Shown here one piece after another: positions 2,929-38,072 of a stretch of 44,302 nucleotides of DNA. The stretch lies in contig JAHEEE010000023.1 in the NCBI GenBank assembly GCA_024640845.1, positions 5,267 through 49,568 of the forward strand, written 5' to 3'. The number at the start of each line of letters is the position of its first letter. The stretch's first letter is position 1. The stretch comes from Myxococcales bacterium. Its GTDB lineage: Bacteria; Myxococcota_A; Polyangia; Polyangiales; Houyiibacteriaceae. The notes under the pieces are model-generated. The model ran no database searches. It worked only from the letters and a program-made list of their open reading frames with translations, and was not told where the DNA came from. A program made the position numbers and the translations under genes.

Positions 2929-3029
2929 GATTCTATCCTTGCGTTGCAGTAGACTGACTCATCGAGCGCTGCTGTCGAGGCGAGCGTTGTGCTACACCAA
3001 CTCTGTTCGCAAGCGTATGTGGTGTTCGG

Positions 3030-3641: not shown

Positions 3642-3646
3642 CCGGC

Positions 3647-4432
3647 TCAGCGGTCGCGCGACTCGATCGGTGCCTCGGCCCTCACCATCGAGCGCACGAG
3701 CTCCCGGTTCATCCGCGCGATCCATCGAAGGCTCACGCCCTTCGGGCACGCGGCCTCACACTCGCCGTGGTTGGTGCAACCGCCGAAGCCCTCGGCGTCC
3801 ATCTGTGCGACCATCTTGCGCGCGCGATCCTGTCGTTCGGCTTGGCCTTGGGGTAGCAACGACAAGTGGGAGATCTTCGCGGCCGTGAACAGGCTCGCGG
3901 ACGCATTCGGGCAAGCGGCAACGCAGGCGCCGCAGCCGATGCATTCGGCGGCGTCCATCGCGCTGTCGGCGTCCTTCTTCGGGACCGGTAACTCGTTGGC
4001 CTCGGGCGCGCTTCCCGTGCGGATCGAGATGTAGCCGCCAGCCTGGATGATTCGCTCGAATGCCGAGCGATCGACGATGAGGTCCTTGATGATCGGGAAG
4101 CCGCTCGCCCGCCACGGCTCGAGCCAAATCTCGTCGCCATCCTTGAACTGGCGCATGTGGAGCTGGCAAGCGGTGGTGAGCTTCTGGGGACCGTGGGCCA
4201 CGCCGTTGATGACCATTCCGCACGAGCCGCAGATGCCTTCCCGGCAATCGTGGTCGAACGAAATTGGCAGCTCGCCTTTTTCGATGAGCTCTTCGTTGAT
4301 GACGTCGAGCATCTCGAGAAATGACATGTGCGTGGTGATGTCTTTGGCCTGATGGGTTTCGAAGCGGCCCGCATCGTTGGGACCGTTCTGGCGCCAGACG
4401 TGAAGAGTGAGATTGAGAAGTTGGTCGCTCAT
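3647..4432 (-). CDS. sdhB: Succinate dehydrogenase iron-sulfur subunit
   Basis: 261 residues. SdhB carries electrons from the flavin of SdhA to the quinone site. All three clusters can be seen: the [2Fe-2S] ferredoxin box C63-x4-C68-x2-C71 with C89, the [4Fe-4S] box [12 protein letters not shown], and the [3Fe-4S]-type box [12 protein letters not shown]. The last has no cysteine at the position that would make it a second 4Fe cluster, as usual for SdhB. The start at 4432 (MSDQLLNL) follows an AAGGGG Shine-Dalgarno; the open frame continues further upstream only into sdhA. It is the third gene of sdhC-sdhA-sdhB, 11 bases after sdhA. Could in principle be a fumarate reductase subunit; the pairing with a five-helix SdhC allows either direction. 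Confidence 0.95.
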
Positions 4433-4443
4433 CGATAAGCCCC

Positions 4444-6375
4444 TTACTTGTAGCTCCGCTTGGACGGCTTGACGTACTCGAAGCTCAAAGGCTCCTTGTG
4501 GAGTCGCGGCTCGGCCGGGTTGCCGGTCCACTCCCAGGCGGCGACGTACTTGAAGTGCTCGTCGTCGCGGAGGGCCTCGCCGTTCTCCTCGTATTCCTCG
4601 CGGAAGTGGCCGCCGCAGCTCTCCTCGCGCTTGAGTGCATCGAGGCACATCAGCTCGCCGAGCTCGAAGAAGTCAGCGACGCGGCCCGCCCGCTCGAGCG
4701 TCTGGTTCAGTGTCTCGCCACTGCCCGTGATCTTCACCTCGCGCCAGAACTGGTCGCGGAGCTTCGGGATCTCGCGGAGCGCTTCTTCGAGCCCTTCCTT
4801 GTTGCGAGACATGCCGCACTTGTTCCAAATGATCTTGCCGAGCAGCCGGTGGAAGTGCTCGGGTGCGTGCTTGGGGTCCGGCGCGTTCATCAGCTTCCGA
4901 ATGCGCTCTTCGACGCGGGCGATCGCCTGCTTGACGTCTGGGTGATCCTCGGAGAGCGGTGGAAGTGTGCGCACCTCGCCGAGGTAGTTCCCCACCGTGA
5001 AAGGCAGCACGAAATAGCCGTCGGCGAGCCCCTGCATCAGCGCCGAGGCGCCGAGCCGGTTGGCGCCATGGTCGGAGAAGTTCGCTTCACCGCCGGCGAA
5101 TAGACCCTGTACCGTCGTTTCGAGGTTGTAGTCCACCCAGAGGCCGCCCATCGTGTAGTGCGTCGCGGGGTAGATGCGCATCGGAGTCTTGTAGGGGCTG
5201 TCACCGGTAATGCGCTCGTACATCTCGAAGAGGTTCCCGTAGCGTTCGCGAATGGTGCTCTCGCCGAGACGATTGATCGCATCGGCGAAGTCGAGATAGA
5301 CCGCGCGGCGCTCGCCATCGACTTCCGGGCCGATGCCAAGGCCGTCGTTGGTGACATAAAGCGCGTTCCGAGAGGCGACGTCACGCGGAACCAAGTTGCC
5401 GAATGCCGGATAGCGCTCCTCGAGGTAGTAGAAGCGATCGGCCTCAGGGATGTCCTCCGGCCGCTTGGTGACGTCTTCCTTTTTGCGTGGCACCCAGACG
5501 CGGCCGTCGTTGCGAAGCGATTCGCTCATCAGCGTCAGCTTCGACTGGTAGCTGCCAGCCTGCGGGATGCAGGTCGGATGGATCTGCGTGTAGCAAGGGT
5601 TGGCGAAGGCGGCGCCCTGCCGGTGCGCACGCCACGTGGCCGTGACGTTGCAGCCCTTGGCGTTGGTCGAGAGATAGAAAACGTTGCTGTAGCCGCCGGT
5701 GCACAATACCACCATGTCGGCGATGTGGGCGCTCACCTTGCCGCTCTTCATGCATCGGGTGACGATGCCGCGCGCGCGGCCCTCGTGCACGATGAGATCC
5801 AGCATCTCCGTCCGCGTGTGCATTTCGACGGTGCCTGCGTCGATCTGGCGGCTGAGCGCTTGGTAGGCGCCGAGCAAGAGCTGCTGTCCCGTTTGGCCCC
5901 GCGCGTAAAATGTTCGCGACACCTGTGCGCCGCCGAAAGATCGATTGGCGAGCAGGCCCCCATACTCGCGTGCAAACGGAACACCTTGTGCGACTGCCTG
6001 GTCGATGATGTTCACACTGAGCTGGGCAAGCCGGTAGACGTTCGATTCGCGGGACCGGAAGTCGCCGCCCTTCACGGTGTCGTAGAACAGGCGGTACACG
6101 CTGTCGCCATCGTTTTGGTAATCTTTGGCCGCGTTGATGCCGCCCTGCGCGGCGATGCTGTGCGCACGTCGAGGGCTGTCCTGGTAACAGAAGCACTTGA
6201 CGTTGTATCCCATTTCGCCGAGCGAAGCGGCGGCTGCGCCCCCCGCGAGACCGCTGCCAACCACGATGATGTTGTACCTGCGTCGGTTGGCCGGCGCGAC
6301 GAGCTTGCTCGACTCTTTGTGCTTCTCCCAGCGATGCTCGATGGGACCGGTCGGTTCGTTCGATCGAAGTTCCAT
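4444..6375 (-). CDS. sdhA: Succinate dehydrogenase flavoprotein subunit
   Basis: 643 residues. It oxidises succinate to fumarate with covalently bound FAD. The dinucleotide fold [14 protein letters not shown] lies near residue 35; the flavin-linking histidine is in [15 protein letters not shown]; substrate-site segments HPTCIP and THYTMGGLW are present. The length and C-terminal lysine-rich tail match the non-enteric (Bacillus/epsilon/delta) SdhA/FrdA type. The ATG at 6375 is preceded by GAGGGG. Eight bases separate it from sdhC and 11 from sdhB, so the three genes form one operon. The open frame extends upstream over sdhC, but that part is a shadow. Confidence 0.95.
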
Positions 6376-6383
6376 GACGCCCC

Positions 6384-7031
6384 TCAAAGTGTGATGAATC
6401 CTGCGAGCACGGCGATTGGGAACGACAGGTTCCCAATGGTGATCACGGCGCAAATCGCGATCGCGAGATCGCGGCGATAGTCGTTGTAGCGAGGATGGTT
6501 GGCTCCCACCGTCTGGAAGGCGCTGTAGATGCCGTGAAAAATGTGAAAGCCGAGAGCGAGATTCCCCGCGATGTAAACGCCTGCGATCAGGGGGTTTTGA
6601 AAGCCTTCGACGACGTTGCGGTAGACCTCGCCCGGGTGCGCCGGAAGAATCGTGAAGTGCAATAAATGATAGACGATGAACAAGAGCAAAATCGGCCCCG
6701 ACCAGTACATGGTACGAGCGGCATAGTCGGTCGCGAGATCCTTGTGCACCTTGTAGCGAGAGCCGCGCGCCTTTCGGTTGCGATTCCACAACGAGAATGC
6801 CGATGCGATGTGGGCCCCGAACGCAAACAGCAGCAGCAGCCGGGTGCCCCAGAGGAGCGGTGGCAGGCCCTTCAAAAACTCAGCGTAGCCATCCATCGCC
6901 TCGGCACCACGGTAGAGGTTGAGGTTGCCCAGGAAGTGGCCGATCGCAAAACCGACGATGATCAGACCCGAGAGGGCCATGATGAGCTTCTTACCGACGG
7001 TCGTTTGGTGGAGGGTTAGTGCTCGCTGCAT
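6384..7031 (-). CDS. sdhC: Succinate dehydrogenase cytochrome b subunit (five-helix type)
   Basis: 215 residues with five hydrophobic helices, the single-subunit membrane anchor that holds two b hemes (B-type complex, as in Bacillus and Wolinella) rather than separate SdhC and SdhD. Candidate heme histidines are H32 (GHFLGN), H74 (GAHIAS), H122 and H125 (YHLLHF) and the pair in GFHIFHG. No sdhD is present, which agrees with this type. Di-heme anchors may run reverse electron flow and can work with menaquinone. The start is set by GAGGAGA four bases before the ATG. First gene of sdhCAB; an inverted repeat lies upstream at 7060-7087. Confidence 0.93.
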
Positions 7032-18073: not shown

Positions 18074-20347
18074 CTAGATGTTTGCTCGCATCCAACTCAG
18101 CTCGACCGCAGGGATCAACATCTCCACATCGGTGCCGGCCTGCGCACTGAGCTCGTCCAAAAAGGCCTCCAGCTTGTCAGATGGGGTGATTGGAAGATTC
18201 GCGGGGTCGCGCGCCAAGAACGCTCGGTAGGTCTGCTGATACGTGTCCCAACCGAGTTGCTCGGCCAAGAGAATGAAGCGAAAGGTCATGGCGTTCCAGT
18301 TGTAGGAGCTCGTGGCCACAGCCTGTTGATAGATCTGCTCGTACGGATCGCGGAGGGCGATGCCCTCGTACAGCGTCCCGTCGAAACGCACTCGTCCGTT
18401 GAGGGTCGTGACGACATAGTAAAGCTTGAAGTTGGCAGAAAACTCGGCCTGGAAGACCCACCGATCGTCTAGGTCGAAGCCGTGTGAGATTTCGTGCAGG
18501 ATTCCGAAAGACCAATCGTCTTCGCTGTGCACCCTCCCGATCGCGGTCCCGATGTACTCTTGCAACCAGCGGATCGGATTTCCGGCCACCGCCCATCCAC
18601 CGGGATATTGGCGCACTGACAGCACACGTTGCAGCTCACCATCGTACGGAACGTCACCCACCAGCTCGGTGTATGCCTCGTAGGAGGCGTCGAGGTGCCG
18701 TAGCCAACGGTCGAGCGTTTCGGGGGTAGCCCTGGCAAGGTCGATTCGTTCGAGGTTGAACGAGAGGTGCTTGCTCGATAGCGGAGGTGCGAAGTCGTCG
18801 GCGGTTAGGTTCAGGTCGTCATACCAGGCTGTGCCCGAGACGGTGCTGGCCCAGAACCCGAGCCTTGCATCGATGCTGGGGTCAATTGGCCCGGCGACGC
18901 CCGCGACCAGGCCCTGGGCATCGGTTTCGAAGGTGACCCAGAGCTGCCGCCAGCCAAAGGTTCCCGTCGAACCGGCGCTGTGGCTTTTGGTATAGGTGTC
19001 GAGTAGGCCCAGGTTCGCGCCAGCTCCACCTTCAGTGATGTTCTCGCCCCTGATCCAGCCCGAGAGATTGTAGGGCGTGTTGGGCGTCAGCTGCACCGGT
19101 TGGTACCACCAGGCGTCGTTCGGGGTTGCCGAGTCGGTGGTGATGCGAACCCCTGCGCTCCCGCCCCGCCCCGCGTTGGGTTCCCAGGCAAACTCACTGT
19201 AGTGCCTCCACTCGCCGCTACTCCATCCCACAGGCAAACCTCCCGAGGCCTGTTCGAAATCAACGTTCGTCAACGCCGGTGGAGCGAGGCTCACGACTGC
19301 GAGCGCCGTATCCCACGCACCATCGGTGTCGAACACAGTCAGCAAAACGTCGTAGTCACCGGCTTGGTCGAACAGGTGGCTCCAATGGGGTGTTGTCGTC
19401 ACGACCGGGTCGCCTTCGGCGAGGACCTTCCACGAGTAATGCAGACTATCCCCGTCTGGATCGGTCGATCCGGATGCGTCGAAGTCGACCGTGCGGGGCA
19501 CCTCACCCGTCAACGGATACGCCGTGAGCTTCGCGGTGGGCGGCTGGTTCATAGAGACGCAGACACCGGCCTCACAAACGCCGGGATGCCCTCCAAAGTC
19601 GCACTCAGTTCCATTTTCGACCGGTGTGTGCGGACATCCGCCCGTCATCGGGTCGCAGCTGTCTTCCGTGCAGGGATTCTCGTCCCGGCAGTCGACGCCT
19701 TCGCAGAGGCCGACACACGCGCCGGCGGCGCAGTCGCCGGGAAGGCCGTCGAGATCGCAGGTCGCACCGTCAACCTTGTTCGGGTTGGAGCATGAGCCGT
19801 CCATCGGATCGCACACGTCGTCCGTGCAATCGTTGTCGTCGCCGCAGTCGACCTCGCGGCAGAGTTGGGCGTCCACGCACACGCCCGACTCACAAGCCCC
19901 AGGGAGCTCGCCGAAGTCGCACCGGGCTCCGTTTGGCCGGCGGGTATTCGCGCACTCACCTGTAGCGCGCTCGCAAACGTCTTCGGTGCACTCGTTTTCG
20001 TCGTTGCAATCGACGTCTCGACAAAGACTCACACACTGGCCTGAGTCACATTGGCCGGGGTCCGCGCCGAACGCGCACTCGGTACCGTCTTCTTCAGCCG
20101 CATGGGAGCAACTTCCATCGACGAGGTCACACGCATCCTCGGTGCACGGATTGCCGTCGTCACAGTCGATCGCTTCGCACAGGTCCGAGCCGCCGGCACC
20201 CCCGAGACCACCAAAGCCACCATGACCAGCCGTTCCAGCGGAAGCGCCGCTTCCAGCGGCCCCACCCATCCCGCCTTCTTCGCTGCACCCGAGCACCGTC
20301 AGAGTGCCAAGCGCCAAGACACAGACGAACCCGGCCAAAGGTCGCAT
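18074..20347 (-). CDS. Lipoprotein metalloprotease: Cys-rich repeats, PKD, carbohydrate-binding-like and gluzincin (M60-like) domains
   Basis: 757 residues. Lipobox TVLGC (C21), a Gly/Ala spacer to about 53, four cysteine-rich repeats of about 52 residues (57-263; each reads VDCxDxNxCTxDxC, then GxCxxGxCV), a PKD domain (268-354, with DASGSTDPDGD), a jelly-roll domain like a family-4/9 carbohydrate-binding module (about 358-515, ending AWYDDLNL), and a protease domain. The zinc motif is H618-E619-I-S-H622, with E635 in FQAEFSANF, the gluzincin layout seen in M60/enhancin proteases that attack mucin-type glycoproteins. The start at 20347 is fixed by GGGAGGT five bases upstream. Family of the protease domain is inferred from the motif; a role in feeding or predation is a guess. 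Confidence 0.78.
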   Translation of the reverse strand: MRPLAGFVCVLALGTLTVLGCSEEGGMGGAAGSGASAGTAGHGGFGGLGGAGGSDLCEAIDCDDGNPCTEDACDLVDGSCSHAAEEDGTECAFGADPGQCDSGQCVSLCRDVDCNDENECTEDVCERATGECANTRRPNGARCDFGELPGACESGVCVDAQLCREVDCGDDNDCTDDVCDPMDGSCSNPNKVDGATCDLDGLPGDCAAGACVGLCEGVDCRDENPCTEDSCDPMTGGCPHTPVENGTECDFGGHPGVCEAGVCVSMNQPPTAKLTAYPLTGEVPRTVDFDASGSTDPDGDSLHYSWKVLAEGDPVVTTTPHWSHLFDQAGDYDVLLTVFDTDGAWDTALAVVSLAPPALTNVDFEQASGGLPVGWSSGEWRHYSEFAWEPNAGRGGSAGVRITTDSATPNDAWWYQPVQLTPNTPYNLSGWIRGENITEGGAGANLGLLDTYTKSHSAGSTGTFGWRQLWVTFETDAQGLVAGVAGPIDPSIDARLGFWASTVSGTAWYDDLNLTADDFAPPLSSKHLSFNLERIDLARATPETLDRWLRHLDASYEAYTELVGDVPYDGELQRVLSVRQYPGGWAVAGNPIRWLQEYIGTAIGRVHSEDDWSFGILHEISHGFDLDDRWVFQAEFSANFKLYYVVTTLNGRVRFDGTLYEGIALRDPYEQIYQQAVATSSYNWNAMTFRFILLAEQLGWDTYQQTYRAFLARDPANLPITPSDKLEAFLDELSAQAGTDVEMLIPAVELSWMRANI

Positions 20348-20690
20348 CACTACCTCCCACGGAGACGCTGCGATTTGGTTGCACGGGGTATGCCAGCTCG
20401 CTTTTTCGTCGATTTCTCGTGGCGCGACGCGCAGGCCTTGCGCTTTTGCCGCATCGGGGCGCAGCGGCTGCGTTGCTACGGCGGCGCCGCCAAACGCGCC
20501 TGCGTCGCAGGACGCCGAGATCCGCTTCCCCCCGGTTGAGCGCATCTGGAGCAATTCGATGAAACCGAACTCGCGCGGGGCGCTGTCGTGCTTGCCGCGA
20601 TGACTTTGGGGGTCTCGAAGTTGAGCGCGTGCGGAGGCGAAGGGGGTGGGTCGTCCATGATGGGCAGCGTGGCTGTCGCTGGCTCTCCCG
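20348..20690. other. Intergenic region without a convincing gene
   Basis: 343 bases between the NlpC/P60 stop and the gluzincin start, both on the minus strand. Apart from the Shine-Dalgarno of the gluzincin gene (GGGAGGT) I see no RNA gene and no clear terminator. A 60-codon minus-strand frame (20476-20658) begins with ATG but has low-complexity Pro/Ser composition and no ribosome site. The gap probably holds the end of one transcript and the promoter of the next. Confidence 0.5.
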
Positions 20691-23600
20691 TTACCCGGGC
20701 CGCTCGCGCTCGGCGAACCACACGCGGTATTTCAGCATCCGGCTCTGCTGCTCCGGAGGAGCCCTCCGCTTGCACGTCGCGTGCTCCTTGGAACCCTCGA
20801 GGGCGCCCCATCGGATCTCCACGCAGTCGTTGGGATTGTACGCGACTTCCATCGCCTTCATTCGATCGACTACGTCCGCCAGGGTGAGCGTCCACGTGCT
20901 CCCGTCCGAGCGCGTGTACTCGAAGGTGCGTTTCTGCAGCTCGGCGGCGAGGGCGCTGCGCACCGCGCCCGCTGCCGTGTCTCCATCGGCGACCGCGATC
21001 CCGAAGCGTTCCGGATGCGCAGCGACGGTATCAGGGAACGACACTACGGCGTCGATACTGATCAGCAGGCGCATGTCGCGCGACGGTGTCGAGAAGTCTT
21101 CCCATGGCCCAGTCGTGAGAAACAGCGCCCCGCCGTACGGCATGTCCACCACGGCGTAGCTCTGCTCACGCATGTAGTCCTCGCCGTTTTGCACCGAGCT
21201 CAGCCTTCGCTGGACCGACTCATCGAGGGCGTCGACCAGACTCATCTGCATCCGGATCGGATCGAGCGGACGCGGATTGATGAGGCCTTCCATCGTCGAG
21301 TAGAAGTCATCGGCGCTGCCGCTGTACTGCATGTCGGACCAAGCGCGGATCCCTTTCGCATCCCGAAGCTCCTGATTGGTCGCGATCCTCCAGGGCTGAA
21401 CCGGGCTCAAGGGTTCAGCTTCAGTGTCAGCGCCAGCGCCAGCGCCAGCATCAGTGTCCGCCTCGGGGTCGTACTGCACGGGCCTCCATGCCTTGAACCC
21501 CGCGCCCACGAGATCGGTCTTTGGAGTGAACAAGAACGAGCCCCTCCAAAAGCGCCTCCGGCCGACTGTTCCGTCGGGCTGTGCGTCCGCGCCGATGAGT
21601 ACGCCGTAATCTCTGACGCCCTGTGGTTTCCAACGCGCGACGACGAGGACGTGCCCGTAGGGGTCGGCATACACCGTGCCGGGTCGCAACGATTGACGCC
21701 GCAAGCGCACCGGATAGAAGTCGGTCTCGTCGTCGCCGGGCAAGGTGCGCGGGCTCGAGGAATGTACGGTGTTGGAGAGGCGCCGTGCGAACCTGCGAAA
21801 CGCCGCGGGGGCACTCTTGTCGGGCACGGACTGCAGGTTGCTGAGCACCGTGGGCTCGCACACCGGAGCTGTGTCCTTCCCGCCGCGCGTACACATGCGG
21901 TACACGAACGGCAGTCGGAGCTTCCATGCAAAGTACGCGCGAAGGAAATAGGGAAGGTCGGCACAGTCCGGCTCGAGCGAGAGCTCGGCGTCTTCGCCTG
22001 GCGCGCGATAGTCGTAGAGCAAGTTGCGCTCGCGTTCTGCGATCAACGTCTGAAGGCTCGGCCAGGTCGTGTCGTCGTCCGTCGGCTCTAAGAAGAGCTG
22101 TTCGACGAACGCGGAGTAGAGGTTCTCCGTGGCGCGCCCCCACTGCTCGCTGATCTCCCATGCCGGACCCGGCGCAGCCCGAGGCTCGGGTGGGGCTTCG
22201 CTCTTGGCCACTACGAACCGTTCGCAGGTCAGCACGTCGTCGCCGTCTGCGAGGACCGCCGTCCAGCGACCCGCCATCGGCTCCGGGACCTCGACCCATC
22301 GACTCAACGGCGGTCCGTCGAGGATGTGCTGCTCGGGCTCGACCCGGGTGCCGTCCGGCGCGAAGAGCACCAACGACGCGGCGCCGGGATCGCGCTCGCT
22401 CGAGACGATCACGCGTAGCGGACGCGACGCGTCCGGTCGACGGGGTGAACGGAACACCGAGATGCGTTTCGAGTCGCTGCAGCGCCCCTGTGGACGCGAC
22501 GCGGGCGCGCTCGGGCGGAGCTCGGCATCGGCGACCAGCGCCCGACCAGGAGAATGTCCGAGGACGGTGATGCGTGTGGTTCGACTCAGGAAGTCACGTC
22601 TCGACGTGCCCTCGCCGAGGCTTAGGTCGCTCACAGCGACCCGATCCACTCGATTGATGGTCTCGAGGTCGGTGCCCTCGCAAGAGGTCACGAACTCCGA
22701 GAACGCGTGGATCGCCATCGGCACGCCGTCTCGAGTCGTCCCGAGATACAGCATGATGTGACCTGGGAAGTACATCAGCACGATGCCTCGCCGCGCGGCC
22801 GCCTCCAACAGCAAGCGCTTCTCGTTGAGGTCTTCGACCTCCGAAACGTCGATCGAAAACGTCCCAGCAATCGCCTGCCGTGCGCTGTGTCGTGGAAGCG
22901 CGATACCGAATCGATCGAAGAGCTCGAGCAAGAAGCGCGAGCAATCGTAGCCGCCGTCCTTGCCTCCCCAGCCGTAGGGCTCACCGCGGAGCGAGAACGC
23001 CTCGGTGAGCAGCGCGCGACGAGTGAGTGGTTGGGTGACCCGGCGATCGGCCTCTGCACCGGCCTCCTCGCGATCGAGCGGGGACGAGAGTGTTTCCTCG
23101 GTGACCCAGCCCATCGCGTACGAAGTTCGCGCGAGCAGCATGCCGTTCGGCCAACGCCCGAGGACCTGCACCACTTCGCCCGGGCGCGCCGTGCTGCACC
23201 GATTTCGGTCGAAGTCGAGGTCGATAGGGGCTTGATGGAGGCCCCCGTCGAATGGGCCGCAACGAATCGCCGTCAGCTCTTCGACGCTTCGCCACCCGGC
23301 TTGCATCTCCAGATTGTCCGGCGTCGCGAAGACCTCGATTGCGGCGCTGCCGATCGGATCTCCGGTTGCATCGAGTAGCTCCTCCGTCTCGACCTTCGCG
23401 CGCATGTAGCGCAGCCGCTCGTCGAGCTGCGCACGGAGCGCCTGGTCGTCGATCGGCGCGAACAAATCGGCGCGCCCGATCGGCTCGCCATCGAAGGGCC
23501 GCTCGAGGGCGAGGTTGTGTCGTTCTATGGCATCGCTGCTCAGCAGCGGCTCGTCGACTGGCCCGTACTGCGCGTGGCGCTCGATCCAGTACTCCGCGGT

Positions 23601-23759
23601 CTGATGCTCCGGCCGTACGCCCGCCATCGGAGGGTCGTTCTGCCGCGTGGCTGGGCAGCTGGCGGGACGCTCCTGCTTCTCTGCAGCCTCCCGCGCGTCG
23701 CGACACCCACTGGCACAACATAGCGAAAGAGCCGCCATCACGGCCGCAACTCGCTTCAT
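20691..23759 (-). CDS. Large NlpC/P60 lipoprotein with a second papain-like Cys/His domain
   Basis: 1022 residues. The signal peptide ends at a cysteine (CASGC, C19), probably acylated. Then come an SH3-like region (about 135-225, ending GWVTEETL), an NlpC/P60 domain with catalytic C273 in GGYDCSRFL and H334 in PGHIMLYLG, a beta-sandwich (about 430-517), and a region with DCADLPYFLRAYFAWK (C599) and DPYGHVLVVARW (H703) that repeats the Cys-then-His logic. NlpC/P60 enzymes cut peptidoglycan stems. A Gly/Ala/Asp repeat lies at 768-780 and about 240 more residues of unknown fold follow. The ATG overlaps the TGA of the hydrolase gene (ATGA), which decides this start over one six codons upstream. 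Confidence 0.82.
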   Translation of the reverse strand: MKRVAAVMAALSLCCASGCRDAREAAEKQERPASCPATRQNDPPMAGVRPEHQTAEYWIERHAQYGPVDEPLLSSDAIERHNLALERPFDGEPIGRADLFAPIDDQALRAQLDERLRYMRAKVETEELLDATGDPIGSAAIEVFATPDNLEMQAGWRSVEELTAIRCGPFDGGLHQAPIDLDFDRNRCSTARPGEVVQVLGRWPNGMLLARTSYAMGWVTEETLSSPLDREEAGAEADRRVTQPLTRRALLTEAFSLRGEPYGWGGKDGGYDCSRFLLELFDRFGIALPRHSARQAIAGTFSIDVSEVEDLNEKRLLLEAAARRGIVLMYFPGHIMLYLGTTRDGVPMAIHAFSEFVTSCEGTDLETINRVDRVAVSDLSLGEGTSRRDFLSRTTRITVLGHSPGRALVADAELRPSAPASRPQGRCSDSKRISVFRSPRRPDASRPLRVIVSSERDPGAASLVLFAPDGTRVEPEQHILDGPPLSRWVEVPEPMAGRWTAVLADGDDVLTCERFVVAKSEAPPEPRAAPGPAWEISEQWGRATENLYSAFVEQLFLEPTDDDTTWPSLQTLIAERERNLLYDYRAPGEDAELSLEPDCADLPYFLRAYFAWKLRLPFVYRMCTRGGKDTAPVCEPTVLSNLQSVPDKSAPAAFRRFARRLSNTVHSSSPRTLPGDDETDFYPVRLRRQSLRPGTVYADPYGHVLVVARWKPQGVRDYGVLIGADAQPDGTVGRRRFWRGSFLFTPKTDLVGAGFKAWRPVQYDPEADTDAGAGAGADTEAEPLSPVQPWRIATNQELRDAKGIRAWSDMQYSGSADDFYSTMEGLINPRPLDPIRMQMSLVDALDESVQRRLSSVQNGEDYMREQSYAVVDMPYGGALFLTTGPWEDFSTPSRDMRLLISIDAVVSFPDTVAAHPERFGIAVADGDTAAGAVRSALAAELQKRTFEYTRSDGSTWTLTLADVVDRMKAMEVAYNPNDCVEIRWGALEGSKEHATCKRRAPPEQQSRMLKYRVWFAERERPG
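21421..21458 (-). repeat. Hexanucleotide tandem repeat inside the NlpC/P60 gene
   Basis: On the plus strand, three copies of AGCGCC (21429-21446) plus a partial fourth are flanked on both sides by the direct repeat TCAGTGTC (21421-21428 and 21451-21458). It encodes the DTDAGAGAGADTEAE stretch at about residues 768-782. Because the unit is six bases, changes in copy number would lengthen or shorten this linker without shifting frame. Confidence 0.6.
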
Positions 23760-24694
23760 GTAGGTGCTTGCATCCATTGGATGATCTGGCTTTCGACAGT
23801 GCCCTTAGTGCCGAGTCCGAGGTCCACTCTTTGTGGAAACCCGACGTGGCCCCCATGGCTAGTGACGATCCGCCGAAGCGTGGTCGCATTCTGCAGCCAA
23901 GGCAGCACGCTGTCGATCAAGACCATGGGGTCCCGCTCGGCTGCGATGAACAATGTCGGTGTCTGGATCTGGTCGAGTACGTGGCACGCGCTGGTCTTGT
24001 GCCAGTAGTCCTCGGCCCCTGCAAAGCCATGGCGTGGCGCGATGATCCGTTCGTCCCAGAGCTCGATGGCGTCGATTCTCAATGCCTCCCGCAAGGGCAC
24101 GGGCACCTCCCGGTGCTTTGCGACGTTGCGGTAGATCTCTTTCAGTCCGTTCAACACGTGATGCCGGTAGAAGAAACCACGAGGACGATCGATCGCGCGC
24201 GCACCCGCCTCGAGGTCGATCGGCGAGCACAGGGTAGCGGCCGCGCGAATTCGTGGGTCGGGCTCGCCAGCGAGATAGCGCAGGATCATGTTCCCACCGA
24301 GCGAGTATCCGAGCAGGAGTATGTTCTCGTAGCCTTCCAGTGCCCGGCTTCTCAGCGCTGCAGCGAGATCCTCCGTGAGACCCGCATGGTAGTAGTCCGC
24401 TCCGACACGATCGGCGCCGCGTAGGTTGAGCCGCAGACTGTCGATTCCGGCATCATCGGCCGCTCGCGCGGCCTTGCGCGCATAATAACTCGTCGCGCTT
24501 CCGCCGAGCCCGTGCACGATCACGACGATCGTGTCCGCGGCGCCTCGTTCTGTCAGGCGTCCGCTGAGCCGGAGGGTGCCGACGACCCGGTCATCGAGGC
24601 TCGTCTCCCAGCGCCGCCAGTCCGGCACTCGAGGCGGGAGCAGGTTGTGTCGAAGAAATGGGCCGAGGGTCCAGAAATGACCCCGCCAGTTCAT
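23756..24694 (-). CDS. Alpha/beta hydrolase, YheT-like
   Basis: 312 residues. VIVHGLGGSATSYY forms the oxyanion-hole strand; the nucleophile is S131 in GYSLGGNMILRY; the acid is in FIAAERDPMV; the histidine is in SHGGHVGF. LNLRGADR after the second strand and the GGNMILRYLAGE helix are typical of the YheT/ABHD1-3 branch (COG0429), whose bacterial members are uncharacterised esterases or lipases. No signal peptide. Its ATG overlaps the stop of the upstream M74 gene and its stop overlaps the start of the NlpC/P60 gene, both as ATGA, so the three should be translationally coupled. What a cytoplasmic esterase does with two cell-wall enzymes is not clear. Confidence 0.85.
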   Translation of the reverse strand: MNWRGHFWTLGPFLRHNLLPPRVPDWRRWETSLDDRVVGTLRLSGRLTERGAADTIVVIVHGLGGSATSYYARKAARAADDAGIDSLRLNLRGADRVGADYYHAGLTEDLAAALRSRALEGYENILLLGYSLGGNMILRYLAGEPDPRIRAAATLCSPIDLEAGARAIDRPRGFFYRHHVLNGLKEIYRNVAKHREVPVPLREALRIDAIELWDERIIAPRHGFAGAEDYWHKTSACHVLDQIQTPTLFIAAERDPMVLIDSVLPWLQNATTLRRIVTSHGGHVGFPQRVDLGLGTKGTVESQIIQWMQAPT

Positions 24695-25638
24695 GATTCG
24701 TTGGGTTTGAGCGTCGCCACGGCCGGCGATTGATCCGCCTGCTGGTGCCAGGAGTAAAAGGGCGGGCGGTCTTTGCACATCGGGCGATCGTCGTCCGCGC
24801 AGTAGATGCGTACATGGAAGTGACTGCGATGCGGTGCCCCATGTCGCGGCTGCGTGATCACGCGCCTGGCGCGCATCAGCACCTCGGGGTTCGCACCCTC
24901 TTTGACGGCTTGCTGCAGCAGCCGGCGCTTAATCGCGTTCGCGACGAAGATGTGTTGCACGTCCGTGGTGGAGTGGCTCAGCAGCGATTCGATGAGCGCC
25001 CAGTTGCGCGCAGCGTCGAACTTGTAGAGGTTGCCCCACTGAATACCCATCGCCTTGTTGTTCAGTCGGACGAAGAGTTGCACGTTTACCGGGGTCGATC
25101 GCCGATCCAACAGGTAGAACCCGAGGTCGACGTCGCGGCCGCTTTGGTGTGACACGTGCGGTCGGAACCGACCCCCGCCGGGTCGCGAAAGATCGCCGAC
25201 AGTGAGGCGCGAGCGCGGGTAGCGGAACGCGACGTCGTGGGCGGCCTGCTCGATGATTCGGACGAGCTCGCCGGTGCCGTGACGCGAGTCCTGCGAACCG
25301 ACCTTGACCGCGAAGTCTTTGTGGTCGTTGATGCGCTGACCGAAACGCAGAAGGCCCCGGTTTGGGTAGCCGACAGACACGCTTGGCGCCGCTTCCAAGT
25401 CGGAGGGCGAAACCGCGCGCGGCATCCGTGCGATCTGTTCGAGGTCGTCCTCGGACGGCTCGGCGTGCGCTTCGGCATGCTGCGCCTCACGCAACACGGA
25501 GTCGCCGGTCATCGGCAGCTCGGCGGAGGCAGACGTGCCGAACGACCCAGCCACCCAGACGAGTGCGGTCGCCATGACGGCGCAGATCCACGGTACCAAC
25601 CGTGATCCTGTGCTCCTGTCTGATTCCCTCATCCCCAT
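24691..25638 (-). CDS. Penicillin-insensitive murein endopeptidase-like protein (M74), first copy
   Basis: 315 residues. An N-terminal hydrophobic stretch (about 15-38, VPWICAVMATALVWVAG) serves as signal peptide or anchor. The zinc site of MepA is recognisable: H164 and D171 in SHQSGRDVD and H275 in HRSHFHVRIYC. MepA-type enzymes cut the D-Ala-meso-DAP crosslinks of peptidoglycan in the periplasm and also share the LAS fold of VanX and lysostaphin-type peptidases. The start is one of two ATGs (25638 or 25632), neither with a clear ribosome site. First gene of a coupled trio. A second M74 protein lies at 36448-37458; the two are quite different outside the motifs. Confidence 0.82.
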   Translation of the reverse strand: MGMRESDRSTGSRLVPWICAVMATALVWVAGSFGTSASAELPMTGDSVLREAQHAEAHAEPSEDDLEQIARMPRAVSPSDLEAAPSVSVGYPNRGLLRFGQRINDHKDFAVKVGSQDSRHGTGELVRIIEQAAHDVAFRYPRSRLTVGDLSRPGGGRFRPHVSHQSGRDVDLGFYLLDRRSTPVNVQLFVRLNNKAMGIQWGNLYKFDAARNWALIESLLSHSTTDVQHIFVANAIKRRLLQQAVKEGANPEVLMRARRVITQPRHGAPHRSHFHVRIYCADDDRPMCKDRPPFYSWHQQADQSPAVATLKPNES

Positions 25639-25708
25639 TTTTTTCGACGCCAAGTGTGGCCCGAATCCCCTCGAATGCCAGTGTGCAGGTTGGAGCGCTC
25701 TCATGCCA

Positions 25709-25778
25709 AGGCTGAGAGCCCGTTCAGCCTGCGTTTTACAGGGTTTGCTCTGCTCCCATCGCCGAATTTTTCGAAAAA
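25709..25778. repeat. Hairpin and AT-rich palindrome between the membrane-protein and M74 genes
   Basis: In a 148-base gap, AGGCTGA (25709-25715) pairs perfectly with TCAGCCT (25724-25730) across 8 bases, and the 12-base palindrome TTTTTCGAAAAA lies at 25767-25778, 8 bases after the stop of the minus-strand membrane-protein gene. The second is an A/T island in very GC-rich DNA. The palindrome with its T-rich arm could end the upstream message; the first stem would lie in the leader of the M74 operon. Confidence 0.4.
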
Positions 25779-25786
25779 ACGACGAT

Positions 25787-26335
25787 TTAGCCGGCGGCCG
25801 CAATCGGTTCCGGCGGGTTTTCCGGGGGAAGATCCCCTGGAGGGGGGATCTTATAGCCCAGAAGGTGCCGTGCGAAAAGGGCCCAAATTACGCCGAGGCC
25901 CCACACTAGGCCCAGCACGACCCCGCCGTCGATGATGCCGCGCCAGGGCTGCGGAAGTGAGCGCACCCACCAAATCAACAAGATCAGGGCACCGATGAAG
26001 ACCCAGCTGACCGTTTTTTGACGGCGGGTCGAGTGGAACAGGCTCATACAAAATGGGAGGGCCAGGATCACCCATAAGGGCCTTGGATGCTGTCCGAGAT
26101 AGATGGCCCGCGATACCACACGAGGAGAGAATCGAAGTTGAAAGCCTCGGTACCCTTCGAGATAGGCGTTCGCGATGAGCCACGCCACGTAGATTCCCTT
26201 CTGAGTGCCCGTCATCAGGTCCTCGGTCCACGGCTCGAGCGCGAGCGGAGCGAGCCGCCAAATCGCCTGGCCGAGCAAGAGAGTCACCCAGGCGACACCC
26301 CAGGCGGCCACGAGCTTTTGAACCCAGGGGCGCAT
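25787..26335 (-). CDS. Membrane protein of unknown family
   Basis: 182 residues, with four or five hydrophobic helices (about 8-28, 92-108, 117-132, 145-165) and a long, arginine-containing loop between the first two (QLRFSPRVVSR). The C-terminus is a short proline-rich tail (PPPGDLPPENPPEP). I do not recognise it. The start at 26335 puts the first helix at the N-terminus; a second ATG at 26401 has AAGGAG too close (one base) and would add 22 residues. It is divergent from the Wzz-like gene (90 bases between starts), which suggests a possible link to polysaccharide export, but this is context only. Confidence 0.6.
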   Translation of the reverse strand: MRPWVQKLVAAWGVAWVTLLLGQAIWRLAPLALEPWTEDLMTGTQKGIYVAWLIANAYLEGYRGFQLRFSPRVVSRAIYLGQHPRPLWVILALPFCMSLFHSTRRQKTVSWVFIGALILLIWWVRSLPQPWRGIIDGGVVLGLVWGLGVIWALFARHLLGYKIPPPGDLPPENPPEPIAAAG

Positions 26336-26425: not shown

Positions 26426-28960
26426 TTGGACGACGAGACCTTCGAACTGGGCGCGGACGAGCCGGATGCCAAACCTCGGCGTCCGGGCTTTCCTGTAGAG
26501 CCGCGTCGAGTCCTTAGGATTCTGGCTCAGCACCGAGGTCGCCTGCTGCGTGTGTTCATGATCACGGCCGCCTTCTCGCTGGCTGCGTACTTCTTCGTGC
26601 CGGAGACATACGAGTCGGTCGCGGTCCTGGTCTACGAGGGCAGCCCACTGCCCGTGCAGCAAAACCAGTCTTCGCCCCTGATGAGCGCGTTCGTGCGCTC
26701 CGCCGCGGTGCCAAGTCGGCTTCGCGAAGTGCGGGAGCGTCTAGGATGGGAGATCTCCGATGAGGAGATCAAGAGCCGCGTTGTGGTCACCGAGGAGAAG
26801 GACGGCGGGTCGATGACCATCACCGCAGAGGCGCCCAATGCGGAGGATGCGCAGCGGCTGGCGCAGACGATGCTCGAGGTGTTTCTCGAGCAACAGGCCG
26901 TCTTCAACTCGAAAAAGCTAGACCTCCTCAAGATCGAAAACGAGGCCTCGTTGGAACGCGCGACGGAAAGGCTGGACGCTGCGCAGGCGGCTTTCGACGT
27001 CTTTCGGGAAAAGAGCGGCAAGCCGAACCTGCTCGACGAAAAAGCGCAACTGATCAAGCGTGCCGCGGAGCTTCGCGTGAAGGTGGAAGAGGCGGGGATC
27101 GAGGTCGCTGCGCAGAGCGCGCTCATCCGGGAGCTCGAGGAGGCGCAGCGCGAGCTTCCACGTCAGGTCGTCGCCAGTTCCACCAAAGGCTCGGCCGTCG
27201 ACGCCCCGCTTGCCAAAGCGCGATCCGAGCTTGCCGAAGCGCGCGCTTCCTTGAGCGAGGAGCACCCTCGAGTGCAGGCTCTGCAACAGCGTGTGGCGAG
27301 ATTACTGGCTCAGAAGGGCGACAACCCGGTGGAGGTTGGTGGCCAGACGCTAATGCTCAATCCTGCGCGCGCCTCCGTCGACGAGCAACTGGCGGGCGCG
27401 CGCGCGGCGGTGGCTGCGGCTCAGGAACGGCAGGCGGCCCTCCAAGTGTTGCTGGAGAACGTCAAGCGCGAGGCGCAGGCCCTCGCGCCAGATGAGGGCG
27501 AGGCGCGTCTGATCATGGGAGAGATGGCCGCGGCGCTTGCGCGGGTCGACGAGCTCAAGGTCCAGCGAGCCGCCATTCGCGACGCATCGCTTCGGTCACT
27601 CACGGGCTTTCGCGTGCTCTCCGTACCCGTCGTTCCGGAGGAATCTTCTCGCGTTGCGTCCTACGTGGGAATCCTCGGCGCGCTACCCATCTTGGTCGTT
27701 CTCCTCGCCGCGATCGTGATTTTAGCCCGCGCGCTGAAGACCCTGCAGCTCGAAGCACCGCGAGAGGTCGCGTGGTGGGGCAACGGCCCGGTCCTCGGGA
27801 CGAGTGTTTGGCCTCGCGACCCAAACGCCCTCGACGCCTTCGTCGACGAGCTCGAGGACCAAGGAATGTACGGCGCCGGTCGAACCCTCGTCGTGCCTGC
27901 GACCGAGGCGGAGCGCGAAGTCGCCTGCTCGTTCGCGATGCGACTCGCGGACGCCCCGTGGCTCGCGGCGGCAATCCTGGACGTCGGCGACCGAGCGGAT
28001 TCACAGTCGCCTTTGGTGACACCCGCTCCGAGCGGGGGCTCACCTTGGAGTCCAGCGACGCCGAGGCGGCTCTCGACCCAAGGGACACCTTCGGTGGCGC
28101 ACGGCCGCGCCGTTCCGCGCAAGCCTACCTTGCAGGGCTTCATTCAGCCCAGCGAGGGTCCCAGATCATCGCCGCCGAACGTGGTGATCACACCGCCTCC
28201 CAACCATGGCCCGCATGAATCCTCATCCTCGAGGCCCCCGCGCAAGAGGACCGTCATCGGACTCCCGGCCGTACAGTCGTCAAAACCGATCGAGATCCAG
28301 GAAGAGGCGGTCGCTGAGTCGGCTCCTCCGGCAAGTACGTCGACCGCCTCGGATCGGCCGAGAACCGGGCCCCAACCATTTCGTCGAAAACGAAGCGCAC
28401 GTGCAACGGTGCGGATGGTCGTTCCCGTGACGCAGGACGCGGCAGCGCCCCAAGCATCGACCGCCCGAGACTCCACGACCGGCGAGGAAGCCTTCCTGCT
28501 GACCCGCCCGGTCGCTGTGACAAACGATGAAACACCGTCTGAGGTTGGCCGCGAGACGCCCGAGAGCGCCGGCAATCCGAATGCGGATTCATCGAACGCG
28601 GTGATGCGCGCGGCTGTGCGACTCTTAGGGCACGCCGACGAAGACATCACTCGACCTCGGCCCTCAGCGCCGCCGGTCGAGCCGCGGTTCGGTGATGTCT
28701 CCGGGGTGGCGCTGGCGTGGAACGGTCCACTGAGCGGTCCGGTGTTGCGCCGCGCTGCACGCCTAGCCCACCGCGTAATCGTCGTGGTTTCAGCCGGCTT
28801 GAGTGCGGTCGACCTGACGCGGATTCGCACTCGGCTCGGTCGAGACGGAGGCGGCGTTGGATACGTGCTGGTGAACGTCGATGATGCCTATGTCGCCGCC
28901 GAGGACCGTGTCGGGCCCGTGGAGGAGTTCTGGCGCGGAGAACGGGAAGCGGACGCCTAG
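26426..28960 (+). CDS. Wzz/GumC-type polysaccharide co-polymerase with a degenerate tyrosine-kinase part
   Basis: 844 residues. Cytoplasmic N-terminus, first membrane helix at about 43-59, a periplasmic region with long coiled coil (about 165-385, many heptads such as EARASLSEEHPRVQALQQRVARL), second helix at about 410-434. This is the Wzz/PCP plan for setting chain length of exported polysaccharide. After it, VVPATEAEREVACSFAMRLA (about 487-506) sits where a BY-kinase has its phosphate loop, but the GKS/T residues are missing. A Pro/Ser/Arg-rich disordered stretch of about 230 residues follows. A last segment, LRRAARLAHRVIVVVSAG to YVLVNVDDAY, resembles the end of a BY-kinase. TTG start with GAGG seven bases upstream. 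No wzx or wzy nearby. Confidence 0.77.
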   Translation: MDDETFELGADEPDAKPRRPGFPVEPRRVLRILAQHRGRLLRVFMITAAFSLAAYFFVPETYESVAVLVYEGSPLPVQQNQSSPLMSAFVRSAAVPSRLREVRERLGWEISDEEIKSRVVVTEEKDGGSMTITAEAPNAEDAQRLAQTMLEVFLEQQAVFNSKKLDLLKIENEASLERATERLDAAQAAFDVFREKSGKPNLLDEKAQLIKRAAELRVKVEEAGIEVAAQSALIRELEEAQRELPRQVVASSTKGSAVDAPLAKARSELAEARASLSEEHPRVQALQQRVARLLAQKGDNPVEVGGQTLMLNPARASVDEQLAGARAAVAAAQERQAALQVLLENVKREAQALAPDEGEARLIMGEMAAALARVDELKVQRAAIRDASLRSLTGFRVLSVPVVPEESSRVASYVGILGALPILVVLLAAIVILARALKTLQLEAPREVAWWGNGPVLGTSVWPRDPNALDAFVDELEDQGMYGAGRTLVVPATEAEREVACSFAMRLADAPWLAAAILDVGDRADSQSPLVTPAPSGGSPWSPATPRRLSTQGTPSVAHGRAVPRKPTLQGFIQPSEGPRSSPPNVVITPPPNHGPHESSSSRPPRKRTVIGLPAVQSSKPIEIQEEAVAESAPPASTSTASDRPRTGPQPFRRKRSARATVRMVVPVTQDAAAPQASTARDSTTGEEAFLLTRPVAVTNDETPSEVGRETPESAGNPNADSSNAVMRAAVRLLGHADEDITRPRPSAPPVEPRFGDVSGVALAWNGPLSGPVLRRAARLAHRVIVVVSAGLSAVDLTRIRTRLGRDGGGVGYVLVNVDDAYVAAEDRVGPVEEFWRGEREADA

Positions 28961-35305: not shown

Positions 35306-36451
35306 TCACGATGGGGGGCGATCCACGAGCTCGAGCTCGGCTCCCTTGACGCACAAAGCCGCCGTTCCTCCGATGATCGACGACAACTCACGTCCAACCA
35401 GATCCTGTCGCCATCCATCCGAGAGGCGCGACGGTTGCTCGAGCACCAGGTTGGTGACGTCTTCGCGCGTACCGAGGACAGTGGTGTCGAGGTCCTCCTC
35501 GGAGGCCCGTTGTGCGAGCCACGCGAGGCAAAGGGAGACGATGCCATCGACGTTGGCCGCGTTCGCGGGCTTCTTCGGGGGAAGCCGAACGTCACTCGGG
35601 GAAAGCTGAACGCCTCGACGAATCGCAGCGAGAAGAGCGTCGGCGTGTTTGAAGCGTTGGGCGTCGAAATTCCGTATGCCACGCAACTGAGCCGCGTCGC
35701 GGACCGGCCGCTGTGCGAGAGAGAGCAGTGCCATGTCGGACAGCACCGAGCGCACCGGCTTGTTCCGCCTTCGGGCTTCATCCTCGCGCCACGCGGCCAG
35801 CTCTTGGGCGACGCCTCGCGCCTTGGCGCCGAGCTTCGCCTTGCCGCGGAGCTTCCACCAGAGCGTCCTCGGGTCGGATTGAGATCGATCCTTGGAGCGG
35901 AGCCGTTCGATTTCCTCGTGAGCCCAACCGAGTCGGCCGCGCGCGTCGAGCGCCGCGCTGAGCGTATCGCGAAGCGCCAAGAGGTGCGCGACGTCGGATG
36001 CGGCGTAGGCGAGATCCGCGGCGGGAAGCGGACGCCGCGTCCAGTCGGACAGTTGCGCGCTCTTGTCGAGCTCCAGGCCGAGAAACCCTTCGACCAACTT
36101 TCCGAGCGAGCTGGTTCGATACCCGCAAAAAAGTGCGGCAATTTGGGTGTCGAAGAGCCGACGAGGCGCAACGCCACAAACGAGCTCGAGGATCTCCAGA
36201 TCCTGCGATGCCGCGTGCATGACGCACACGGTGTCGGCCTCCAGGGCCTTTCTGAGCGGCTGCACGTCGACCGCGAGCGGGTCCACGAGGGCGATGCGAT
36301 CGGGTGTAGCAACCTGGATGACCGCGAGGACCGGAAGATAGGTGCGCTCCCGATGAAACTCCGTGTCGAGCGCATACGCTTGCGTCTCGCAGAGCTCATC
36401 GACGAGCATCTCGAAATCGCGTTGCGTGTCGATCCAATCGAAATCATTCAT
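35306..36451 (-). CDS. rnd: Ribonuclease D
   Basis: 381 residues. 3'-5' exoribonuclease used in tRNA and other small RNA 3' trimming. The DEDDy catalytic set is visible: LDTEFHRE (D, E), HAASQDLEIL (D) and YAASDVAHLLAL (Y, D). After a linker, an HRDC domain follows at about 215-295 (LSDMALLSLAQRPVRDAAQLRGI), and a second helical domain of HRDC type ends the protein. The start at 36451 overlaps the M74 stop as ATGA, so the enzyme is co-translated with a cell-wall lipoprotein, an odd pairing. Confidence 0.92.
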   Translation of the reverse strand: MNDFDWIDTQRDFEMLVDELCETQAYALDTEFHRERTYLPVLAVIQVATPDRIALVDPLAVDVQPLRKALEADTVCVMHAASQDLEILELVCGVAPRRLFDTQIAALFCGYRTSSLGKLVEGFLGLELDKSAQLSDWTRRPLPAADLAYAASDVAHLLALRDTLSAALDARGRLGWAHEEIERLRSKDRSQSDPRTLWWKLRGKAKLGAKARGVAQELAAWREDEARRRNKPVRSVLSDMALLSLAQRPVRDAAQLRGIRNFDAQRFKHADALLAAIRRGVQLSPSDVRLPPKKPANAANVDGIVSLCLAWLAQRASEEDLDTTVLGTREDVTNLVLEQPSRLSDGWRQDLVGRELSSIIGGTAALCVKGAELELVDRPPS

Positions 36452-37458
36452 GGGCAGTACGGCCGTCCCGGATGAGGTTTCTTGATCCATTCTTGGCGGC
36501 GGTCGAGCCAACGCTCCACCTCGGTATCCATGGCCCCGGCGGATTGTCGAGCTTCGGCGTGAGTGACGATCTTCGAAGAGGCCTGCTCTCGTTTCTCTTC
36601 GAGCGGGAGCGGACGGACGCCCGCATCCGCCAGTCGCTGCCGCTGCCACGGGTACACCGGTTGGGAGTCCCGGCAATCCCGCGCGATGTCGTCCGGTGTG
36701 CAGAAGAACCGAAAGTGGAAGTGGTCGTCGTGCGGGTAGCTCGGCTGGCAGGTCAGCGCCTCGAATCGCTGGATGGTCGACGCAGGTGCGTCCTCTGCGC
36801 GCGCGTGCTCGAGGAGAAGGGTTCGGAGGTGCTCGGCAACATAGATGTTCTGGAGCTGCGCCGTCTGTCCTTCGATCAGTGCCTGGAGGAAGAGCCAATT
36901 GCGAGGAACGTCGAGAGTGAGAGCGACGTCGTCCGTCGGGTCCGCGAGATCGCGAAAGTCGACCCCTCGACCGTTCGGATCGAAGAATGCTCCTACGCTC
37001 TCAATCGGTTGGCCGTCGGGTCCCAGTTGGTAGAAAAGCGCGTCGACGTCGCGCCCGCTCTGGTGAGAGCGGTGGTGGGGGATCGGACCGCCCCTCTCGA
37101 GGCTGAGGTCGTTGATGGTGATCGGCAGCCCGCCGAGCTCACGCTCCACTCGCGCCGAGGCTTCGAGCAGTGCGCGTACCACCTCGACGGTCCCGTACCG
37201 CGCGGCCGGGTCGCGGCCCGGGTTGAATCGCAGACCGGGCGCCTCGAGGGGCAATGGAACGCCGCCGAGGAGTGAACCATCGTTCGGGTTCCGGAGCGAG
37301 GTCGACTCGAGGCCCTCCAAGTCGAGCGCTGGTGGGGCGGCCGGCGGTGTCTCGGGCTCCAACACCGGTGACGCGGTCTGTGCCTTGGGCGGTGGCACGC
37401 TGCAGCCGAGGACGGCGGTCCCTAGCCAGAGAAGGACGGCGAGGCGTGCGGCGCCCAT
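36448..37458 (-). CDS. Murein endopeptidase-like lipoprotein (M74), second copy
   Basis: 336 residues. Lipobox VLGC with C19; a Pro/Ala-rich linker to about 48; then the M74 catalytic domain. SHQSGRDVDALFY carries the first zinc His and Asp; HDDHFHFRFFC carries the last His. Between them is an inserted stretch that begins GPDGQPIESVGAFFDPNGRG, lacking in the first copy. A lipoprotein form places the enzyme at a membrane rather than free in the periplasm. The start is ATG at 37458, overlapping the TetR stop as TGATG; the GTG just before it would give one more residue. In one unit with the TetR regulator. Confidence 0.83.
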   Translation of the reverse strand: MGAARLAVLLWLGTAVLGCSVPPPKAQTASPVLEPETPPAAPPALDLEGLESTSLRNPNDGSLLGGVPLPLEAPGLRFNPGRDPAARYGTVEVVRALLEASARVERELGGLPITINDLSLERGGPIPHHRSHQSGRDVDALFYQLGPDGQPIESVGAFFDPNGRGVDFRDLADPTDDVALTLDVPRNWLFLQALIEGQTAQLQNIYVAEHLRTLLLEHARAEDAPASTIQRFEALTCQPSYPHDDHFHFRFFCTPDDIARDCRDSQPVYPWQRQRLADAGVRPLPLEEKREQASSKIVTHAEARQSAGAMDTEVERWLDRRQEWIKKPHPGRPYCP

Positions 37459-38072
37459 CACGTTTCGGTCGGACGCAGGACGGAAGCGAAGACGAAGTTG
37501 GACATCTGCAGGAGAAGGTTGAGGAAGCTGTCCGCATCGAGCTGCTGACGTTCGGCCCAGTCGAGGCTTGCCGCCTCCAGGAAACCAAGCCAGCCACGCA
37601 AGCGCAGCCGTGTGCTCGGGTCGTCTGGACGAGCCCCAAACCGCGAAAGACGCGTCAGCATGCGATCGACCAGCGCCTCTCGCGTGCGTTCGAGGACCAC
37701 CGCGACCTCGGGGTCGGTGCCGATGCCTCCGCGGAGCAGAAATGCGTAGACCACCCGGTGCCTCGACACGTAATCGAGAAACGCGCGGAGTCCCGCGCGT
37801 TGTCCTTCGGGGTCCGGTTCCGATCCGGTTCCGTGCTCATCCACGTCCGTCTCATCGAGGAGCTGTCGAGCCGCCTCGGCCACCGCAGCGACATAGAAGG
37901 CCCGCTTGCTGGGGTAGTAGTGGTAGAGAAGACCCTTGGATACCCCGGCGCGCTTGGCGATGTCGTCGATCGAGAGCTCATCGTAACTTTGGCTCGCGAA
38001 CAGATCGAGCCCGAGCTCCAGGAGCTGTTGCCGACGAACATCGACTTGTAGGCGTGTGCGTACAGGTTGCAT
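37458..38072 (-). CDS. TetR-family transcriptional regulator
   Basis: 204 residues. The N-terminal helix-turn-helix is clear: RRQQLLELGLDLF, then YDELSIDDIAKRAGVSKGLLYHYYPSKRAFYVAAV. The C-terminal ligand/dimer domain is variable, so the signal is unknown; members with the LLYHYY motif often sense lipids or drugs. The start at 38072 (MQPVRTRL) is chosen because the frame upstream has no TetR-like sequence. TATACT lies 12 bases before the ATG (38085-38090, minus strand) and no Shine-Dalgarno is seen, suggesting a very short leader. As the first gene of the operon it probably controls itself and the M74, rnd and permease genes. Confidence 0.87.
   Translation of the reverse strand: MQPVRTRLQVDVRRQQLLELGLDLFASQSYDELSIDDIAKRAGVSKGLLYHYYPSKRAFYVAAVAEAARQLLDETDVDEHGTGSEPDPEGQRAGLRAFLDYVSRHRVVYAFLLRGGIGTDPEVAVVLERTREALVDRMLTRLSRFGARPDDPSTRLRLRGWLGFLEAASLDWAERQQLDADSFLNLLLQMSNFVFASVLRPTET

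Follow-up and report, generated by a model that had tools for sequence, protein, structure and literature searches.

Does the second Cys/His unit of an NlpC/P60 lipoprotein encoded in this DNA belong to a second papain-like domain, and what might such a domain do? A first-pass annotation of the window, that is, of the whole 44,302-nucleotide stretch that was analyzed, had noted two such units in one protein and had suggested either a two-headed cell wall enzyme or an enzyme accompanied by a pseudo-catalytic, substrate-binding copy. The explanation that we favor, at a probability of about two in three, is that the gene encodes a lipoprotein that is exported and carries two papain-like heads independent of each other, the second of which (D2) represents an undescribed papain-like family that hydrolyzes a second murein-type bond.

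Layout of the lipoprotein and its first head

The lipoprotein frame lies on the minus strand, which the first-pass annotation had left unstated; it reads from 23759 down to 20691, stop codons interrupting the plus frame, and encodes 1,022 residues from the ATG at 23759 (Table 1). There is an additional in-frame ATG at 23777; the ATG at 23759 shares an ATGA with the upstream gene's stop codon and is followed directly by the lipoprotein signal. We take ASG↓C19 to be a lipobox by the usual lipobox rule.

Table 1. Coordinates of the lipoprotein gene, its parts and the two genes upstream
Feature	Position	Strand	Remarks
Lipoprotein gene (1,022 aa)	20691..23759	(-)	Signal/lipobox, N-terminal region, NlpC/P60, middle region, D2, D3
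Signal peptide and presumed lipobox (ASG↓C19)	23703..23759	(-)	C19 retained in 34/34 relatives with a residue aligned there
N-terminal region, aa 25-235	23055..23687	(-)	Least conserved part; C167/C188 nearly invariant
NlpC/P60 domain, aa 247-400, C273/H334/H351	22560..23021	(-)	PF00877, E 2.8e-9
Middle region, aa 405-530	22170..22547	(-)	Accompanies D2 in most solo proteins too
D2, second papain-like domain (predicted), aa 531-768	21456..22169	(-)	C599 21963-21965, H703 21651-21653, Q727 21579-21581
D3, conserved helical C-terminal domain (predicted), aa 790-1022	20694..21392	(-)	GPWEDFSTPSRDMRL motif; C979, C996
Alpha/beta hydrolase gene	23756..24694	(-)	PF00561, E 8.8e-17; directly upstream, stop overlaps lipoprotein ATG
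Penicillin-insensitive murein endopeptidase gene (M74, MepA type)	24691..25803	(-)	PF03411, E 1.5e-19; first gene of overlapping run

Both Cys/His units were found where they had been annotated, C273 and H334 being 61 residues apart and C599 and H703 being 104 residues apart, and their conservation is not random. In a 44-row alignment of relatives, with counts taken over the rows that carry a letter at the position, C273 was retained in 35/35, H334 in 36/38, C599 in 44/44 and H703 in 43/43. Other Cys and His residues, for example C14 (1/24), H62 (4/35), H175 (4/35) and H402 (4/39), drift freely. The presumed beta-sandwich that had been placed between the two units probably corresponds to the middle region.

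NLPC_P60 is the sole Pfam match of the window lipoprotein. The first head scores 37.3 bits against a membership cutoff of 23 for PF00877 and has the Cys-His-His triad, with C273 and H334 identical in 64/64 sequences and H351 in 63/64; since this triad is nearly invariant, the head should be active. NlpC/P60 enzymes cut murein stem peptides, and the first head would do so through Cys273-His334-His351.

Fold, conserved residues and relatives of D2

The fold list obtained with a two-domain D2-D3 model (pLDDT 93.7, pTM 0.90) was dominated by the helical D3, and D2 was then modeled separately (pLDDT 91.1, pTM 0.91). The 492-residue alignment behind the former drew on 73 of 80 loci, leaving out a duplicate (L118), the truncated L058, L064, L110 and L115, and L049 and L051, whose contigs lack D3; that behind the latter drew on 76 of 80 loci, leaving out L055, L058, L064 and L118. 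In the D2 model, to whose numbering 530 is added to obtain residue numbers, C599 precedes helix 72-84, H703 precedes strand 174-181, and Q727 follows the next strand, 190-196. Passages of PMC10318531 and PMC3573020 describe papain-like enzymes as having their Cys where the core helix starts, along with a third, polar residue, which is Asn, Gln, Asp, Glu or His. The predicted model of D2 shows this order, with an invariant Cys at the core helix, a His at the next strand and a third polar residue.

Structural comparison of D2 alone with VIA-align ranked the CHAP lysin Ly7917 first (Z 7.3, 129 residues aligned), followed by MepS (Z 7.0, 120 aligned) and PlyC (Z 6.0, 122 aligned), Z values of 7 to 8 being common for unmatched models. 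Thirteen of the rows listed had at least 95 aligned residues, and 11 of these are papain-like by title or known family. Foldseek returned nothing at E ≤ 0.001 from the PDB and viral models (best PDB E, 0.62). These fold searches gave no certain family, and absence from their lists excludes nothing; for the solved papain-like module of RflaF_05439, excerpts of PMC3573020 give DALI Z scores of 7.5 to 7.8 to NlpC/P60-type relatives. The annotated second papain-like domain is backed by the helix and strand order, by a collinear alignment with DUF4846, which is considered below, and, at a level near background, by the structural matches to CHAP and NlpC/P60 proteins.

Conservation within D2 is strict around the putative active site. 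Among 135 distinct D2 sequences, D598, C599, H703 and P728 are identical in 135/135 and G702 is identical in 134/135, while position 727 is Gln in 120, His in 14 and Glu in 1, which suggests a Cys-His-Gln/His triad. Two of the short D2 proteins described below, L033 and L034, carry His at position 727. Homologues lacking C599 or H703, which the first-pass annotation had named as evidence against its proposal, were sought and not found, all 135 sequences keeping both. C623 and C634 co-vary across 22 rows (both present in 18, neither in 4), and because they appear and vanish together, a Cys623-Cys634 disulfide may be expected.

Could D2 be a noncatalytic module of papain descent that binds substrate and offers it to the NlpC head, or that controls this head? 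There is a precedent in the papain-like DUF1175, which passages of PMC10318531 name as inactive and peptidoglycan binding. However, C599, H703 and D598 stand at 135/135, including in solo proteins that have no NlpC head, and across 31 fused relatives, D2 and the NlpC domain evolve equally slowly, each with a median identity to the window protein of 0.63 (D2 being the higher in 12 of the 31). Neither head therefore looks vestigial, and we consider a binding module improbable.

None of the libraries searched describes the D2 family. In a search of Pfam and NCBIfam, D2-D3 of the window member had no match, and the 74 members scanned gave scattered chance hits only. The NLPC_P60 and CHAP models of Pfam did not match D2-D3 of the window and were absent from the 18 families listed for the 74 members at E ≤ 1; the DUF4846 model (PF16138) did not match the window protein at E ≤ 10, nor was it among the families listed for those members. 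When PDB sequences were searched with the D2-D3 profile, one chance match came back, to methylglyoxal synthase (E 2), and searches of the open-licence PMC literature yielded no account of D2. D2 differs from the CHAP amidases and endopeptidases (Ly7917 and PlyC), its best and third-best structural matches, in having no CHAP match in Pfam and, for the D2-D3 profile, no credible PDB sequence match. With the NlpC/P60 family (PF00877, including MepS, its second-best structural match, and its own first head), D2 shares the predicted fold order and placement of Cys and His, but the Cys-His spacing in the first head is 61 rather than 104 residues, and the third residue there is His rather than mostly Gln. 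A GD motif on strand 1 marks the NlpC/P60-CHAP group, according to passages of PMC10318531; this motif is absent from D2, which has PG-T in the window, and while G694 is present in 81/81 sequences, the residue after it is T, S, A, V or I and never D (22 rows).

The closest resemblance at the sequence level was to DUF4846, a family that excerpts of PMC10318531 present as newly recognized, papain-like and perhaps NlpC/P60-like, and for which no relative was found in the PDB. With hhalign, D2 and DUF4846 align collinearly over 108 columns, from the Cys to beyond the His, with Cys set on Cys and His on His, at a score of 30.7; none of 300 column shuffles reached this score (best, 25.9), and the reversed profile reached 11.3. 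The program's own probability was low, at 8 to 17%. Profiles of the N-terminal region, the middle region, D3 and DUF2272 scored at most 17.2, and that of the NlpC head scored 18.0. The Cys-His spacing of DUF4846 is 103 to 107 residues in 28 of 30 members (119 to 120 in the other 2) compared to 104 in D2, and therefore the wide spacing flagged in the first-pass annotation is of the DUF4846 type. A Gln follows the His by 19 to 22 residues in the 27 of 30 DUF4846 members where the pattern was found and by 24 in D2. Both families also have the Cys in an xCAD motif and a PG-x-x-[FY] strand ahead of GH, whereas the Cys623-Cys634 pair belongs to D2, which sits between the middle region and D3 and has GT in place of the GD motif. 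From these profile comparisons, we treat D2 as a distant relative of DUF4846 that lies outside its membership. DUF4846 itself occurs in 66 of 235 sampled Myxococcota genomes (L195 to L224 among our loci), yet the genome from which the window comes gave no match.

Whether the two heads arose by duplication was considered for both partners of D2. As regards INDEPENDENCE and history, D2 and its own NlpC head align over only 25 columns (P 0.07), though His falls on His; this P value lies near those of unrelated controls (0.13 to 0.68), so a recent duplication of the first head into D2 is unsupported. D2 and DUF2272, a neighbor in other bacteria (see below), likewise have no profile similarity (P 0.6 to 0.9), and their pairing therefore reflects no detectable duplication. 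Excerpts of PMC3573020 describe another protein with two papain-like (NlpC/P60-type) modules, RflaF_05439 of Ruminococcus flavefaciens, but there the two are repeated in tandem and 45% identical, whereas the two heads of the window protein are unrelated within detection. The two-headed alternative is thus favored over the pseudo-catalytic copy: no copy is detectable, D2 occurs alone, and its residues are fully conserved.

The final 240 residues had been annotated as having no recognizable fold. This stands insofar as no relative was recognized, but the segment is confidently predicted as a mostly helical, conserved domain, D3, whose GPWEDFSTPSRDMRL motif is near-invariant. The best structural match (DisA, Z 6.1, 119 aligned) falls under the chance level for helical bundles, and therefore we claim no relative for D3. 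D3 probably shapes the substrate site of D2.

Solo, split and fused forms of D2

A whole-protein search found relatives in 47 of 57 genomes, mostly from the genus, family and order of the window's source, and a D2 profile matched 66 genomes of a 282-genome sample of the phylum. Across 84,980 species genomes, 456 stretches were confirmed, the best 80 of which were analyzed further. D2 without the first head occurs in Pseudomonadota and in many Myxococcota. The solo form, composed of the middle region, D2 and D3, occupies open frames of about 570 to 740 codons in Rhizobiales, Methylococcaceae, Chromatiaceae and some Myxococcota. One lineage has a split form: at five distinct myxobacterial loci (L113, L160, L161, L185 and L188), the NlpC part is encoded by one gene and the D2 part by its neighbor, with which it overlaps.

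A tree was built by a quick method, with midpoint rooting, from 105 D2-D3 sequences, omitting the duplicate loci L118, L165, L191 and L193 and rows that do not cover the full D2-D3 span. All 59 fused proteins fall within one clade of 63 (SH-aLRT 99). The four other members of this clade (L058, L064, L106 and L194) either run into the end of their contig or sit in a different frame beside an NlpC frame. The sister of the fused clade is the two-gene group together with one solo row (SH-aLRT 100). The simplest reading is that D2 was first solo, then encoded next to an NlpC/P60 gene and finally fused to it, and the gene-pair intermediate is still preserved.

An NLPC_P60 match was missing from 14 of 30 genomes searched, some of which have solo D2. 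In some genomes, for example G036, G055, G045 and G050, solo D2 occurs and neither an NLPC_P60 match nor a DUF2272 match was found; a papain-like partner is therefore dispensable. Being small proteins, the solo forms lend themselves to direct tests of activity, of substrate and of what D3 does.

Several variants were observed. L033, L034 and L186 (in G036, G055 and G268) are short proteins of 318 to 434 aa that have D2 without D3, and each of these genomes also carries a D2-D3 gene at another place. L170 (G234) has tandem D2 genes at 2679-4937 and 5152-6567, and the D2 matches of that genome span four contigs. The solo D2 proteins L036 and L037, of 915 and 1,023 aa, have in place of NlpC/P60 an N-terminal half that looks helical and has no Pfam match. 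Searches of IMG/VR, phages and plasmids found no D2, and a phage or plasmid origin was rejected on this ground.

Gene neighbors and proposed role

The M74 gene, the alpha/beta hydrolase gene and the lipoprotein gene follow one another in this order, each pair overlapping as ATGA. An M74 homologue was present at 10 of the 80 named loci. In Pseudomonadota, the neighbor of D2 at 8 of 15 loci is a DUF2272 gene, which lies upstream in alphaproteobacteria and downstream in gammaproteobacteria; none was present at L189 and L190, the two Pseudomonadota loci from the random sample. With the seed genome excluded, DUF2272 was found in 10 of 14 D2-bearing Pseudomonadota genomes compared to 10 of 149 in a sample of the phylum (Fisher p 5e-8, ignoring kinship). 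Passages of PMC10318531 assign DUF2272 to the NlpC/P60-CHAP group, with Ser substituting for Cys.

These neighbors bear on two further interpretations of D2. One is that it acts not as a hydrolase but as a papain-like transamidase or ligase of the transglutaminase kind, which would attach a protein or an amine either to murein or to a different protein. Transglutaminases do belong among the papain-like folds (passages of PMC10318531), and the invariant D598 and P728 and the entire extra domain D3 suggest a special substrate. We nonetheless regard this as unlikely, as the best structural matches of D2 are murein hydrolases and the neighboring genes encode an M74 peptidase, NlpC/P60 and DUF2272 proteins. 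The other makes D2 a protease that acts on an envelope protein, for instance, its partner enzyme, rather than on murein. Papain-like enzymes are frequently proteases, D2 has weak structural matches to C39, IdeS and calpain folds, and its partners differ from lineage to lineage. Murein enzymes, however, surround D2 in the window, at the split loci and at the DUF2272 loci, and CHAP and NlpC/P60 are its nearest folds, which makes such a protease very improbable.

Under the two-headed explanation that we prefer, the lipoprotein would stand at a membrane, facing the murein. While the first head cuts stem peptides, D2 would attack another peptide or amide bond, located either in murein itself or in a protein linked to it, via Cys599-His703-Gln727, and the M74 enzyme of the same overlapping gene run may open cross-links. 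That the two heads were probably first encoded by neighboring genes and later fused fits joint work on one substrate, along with the M74 endopeptidase. A bolder version, which we put forward tentatively and hold to be doubtful, is that D2-D3 forms a new envelope enzyme family in which a papain-like Cys-His-Gln site under the helical D3 forms or cleaves a linkage of murein or of a lipoprotein that known endopeptidases leave untouched, and that this family was recruited separately beside NlpC/P60 genes in Myxococcota and beside DUF2272 genes in two Pseudomonadota lineages.

A papain-like enzyme in an envelope protein is ordinary in kind, but two unrelated heads together are unusual, and the window protein is a rare example of their union within one murein-type enzyme. 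D2 would join the papain-like superfamily as a probable cysteine hydrolase family missing from the copies of Pfam-A and NCBIfam that we searched.

Three other genes of the window were noted. At 26426-28960 (+), an 844-aa protein resembles Wzz/Wzc-type chain-length proteins by eye and has no Pfam match at E ≤ 0.001. The gene at 18074-20554 (-) encodes a large secreted protein in which repeats matching PF00526 (Dicty_CTDC) accompany an M60-like peptidase domain and a PKD domain. About 11 kb from the M74 gene described above, at 36448-37461 (-), lies another gene for a murein endopeptidase of this MepA type (PF03411, E 1e-13).
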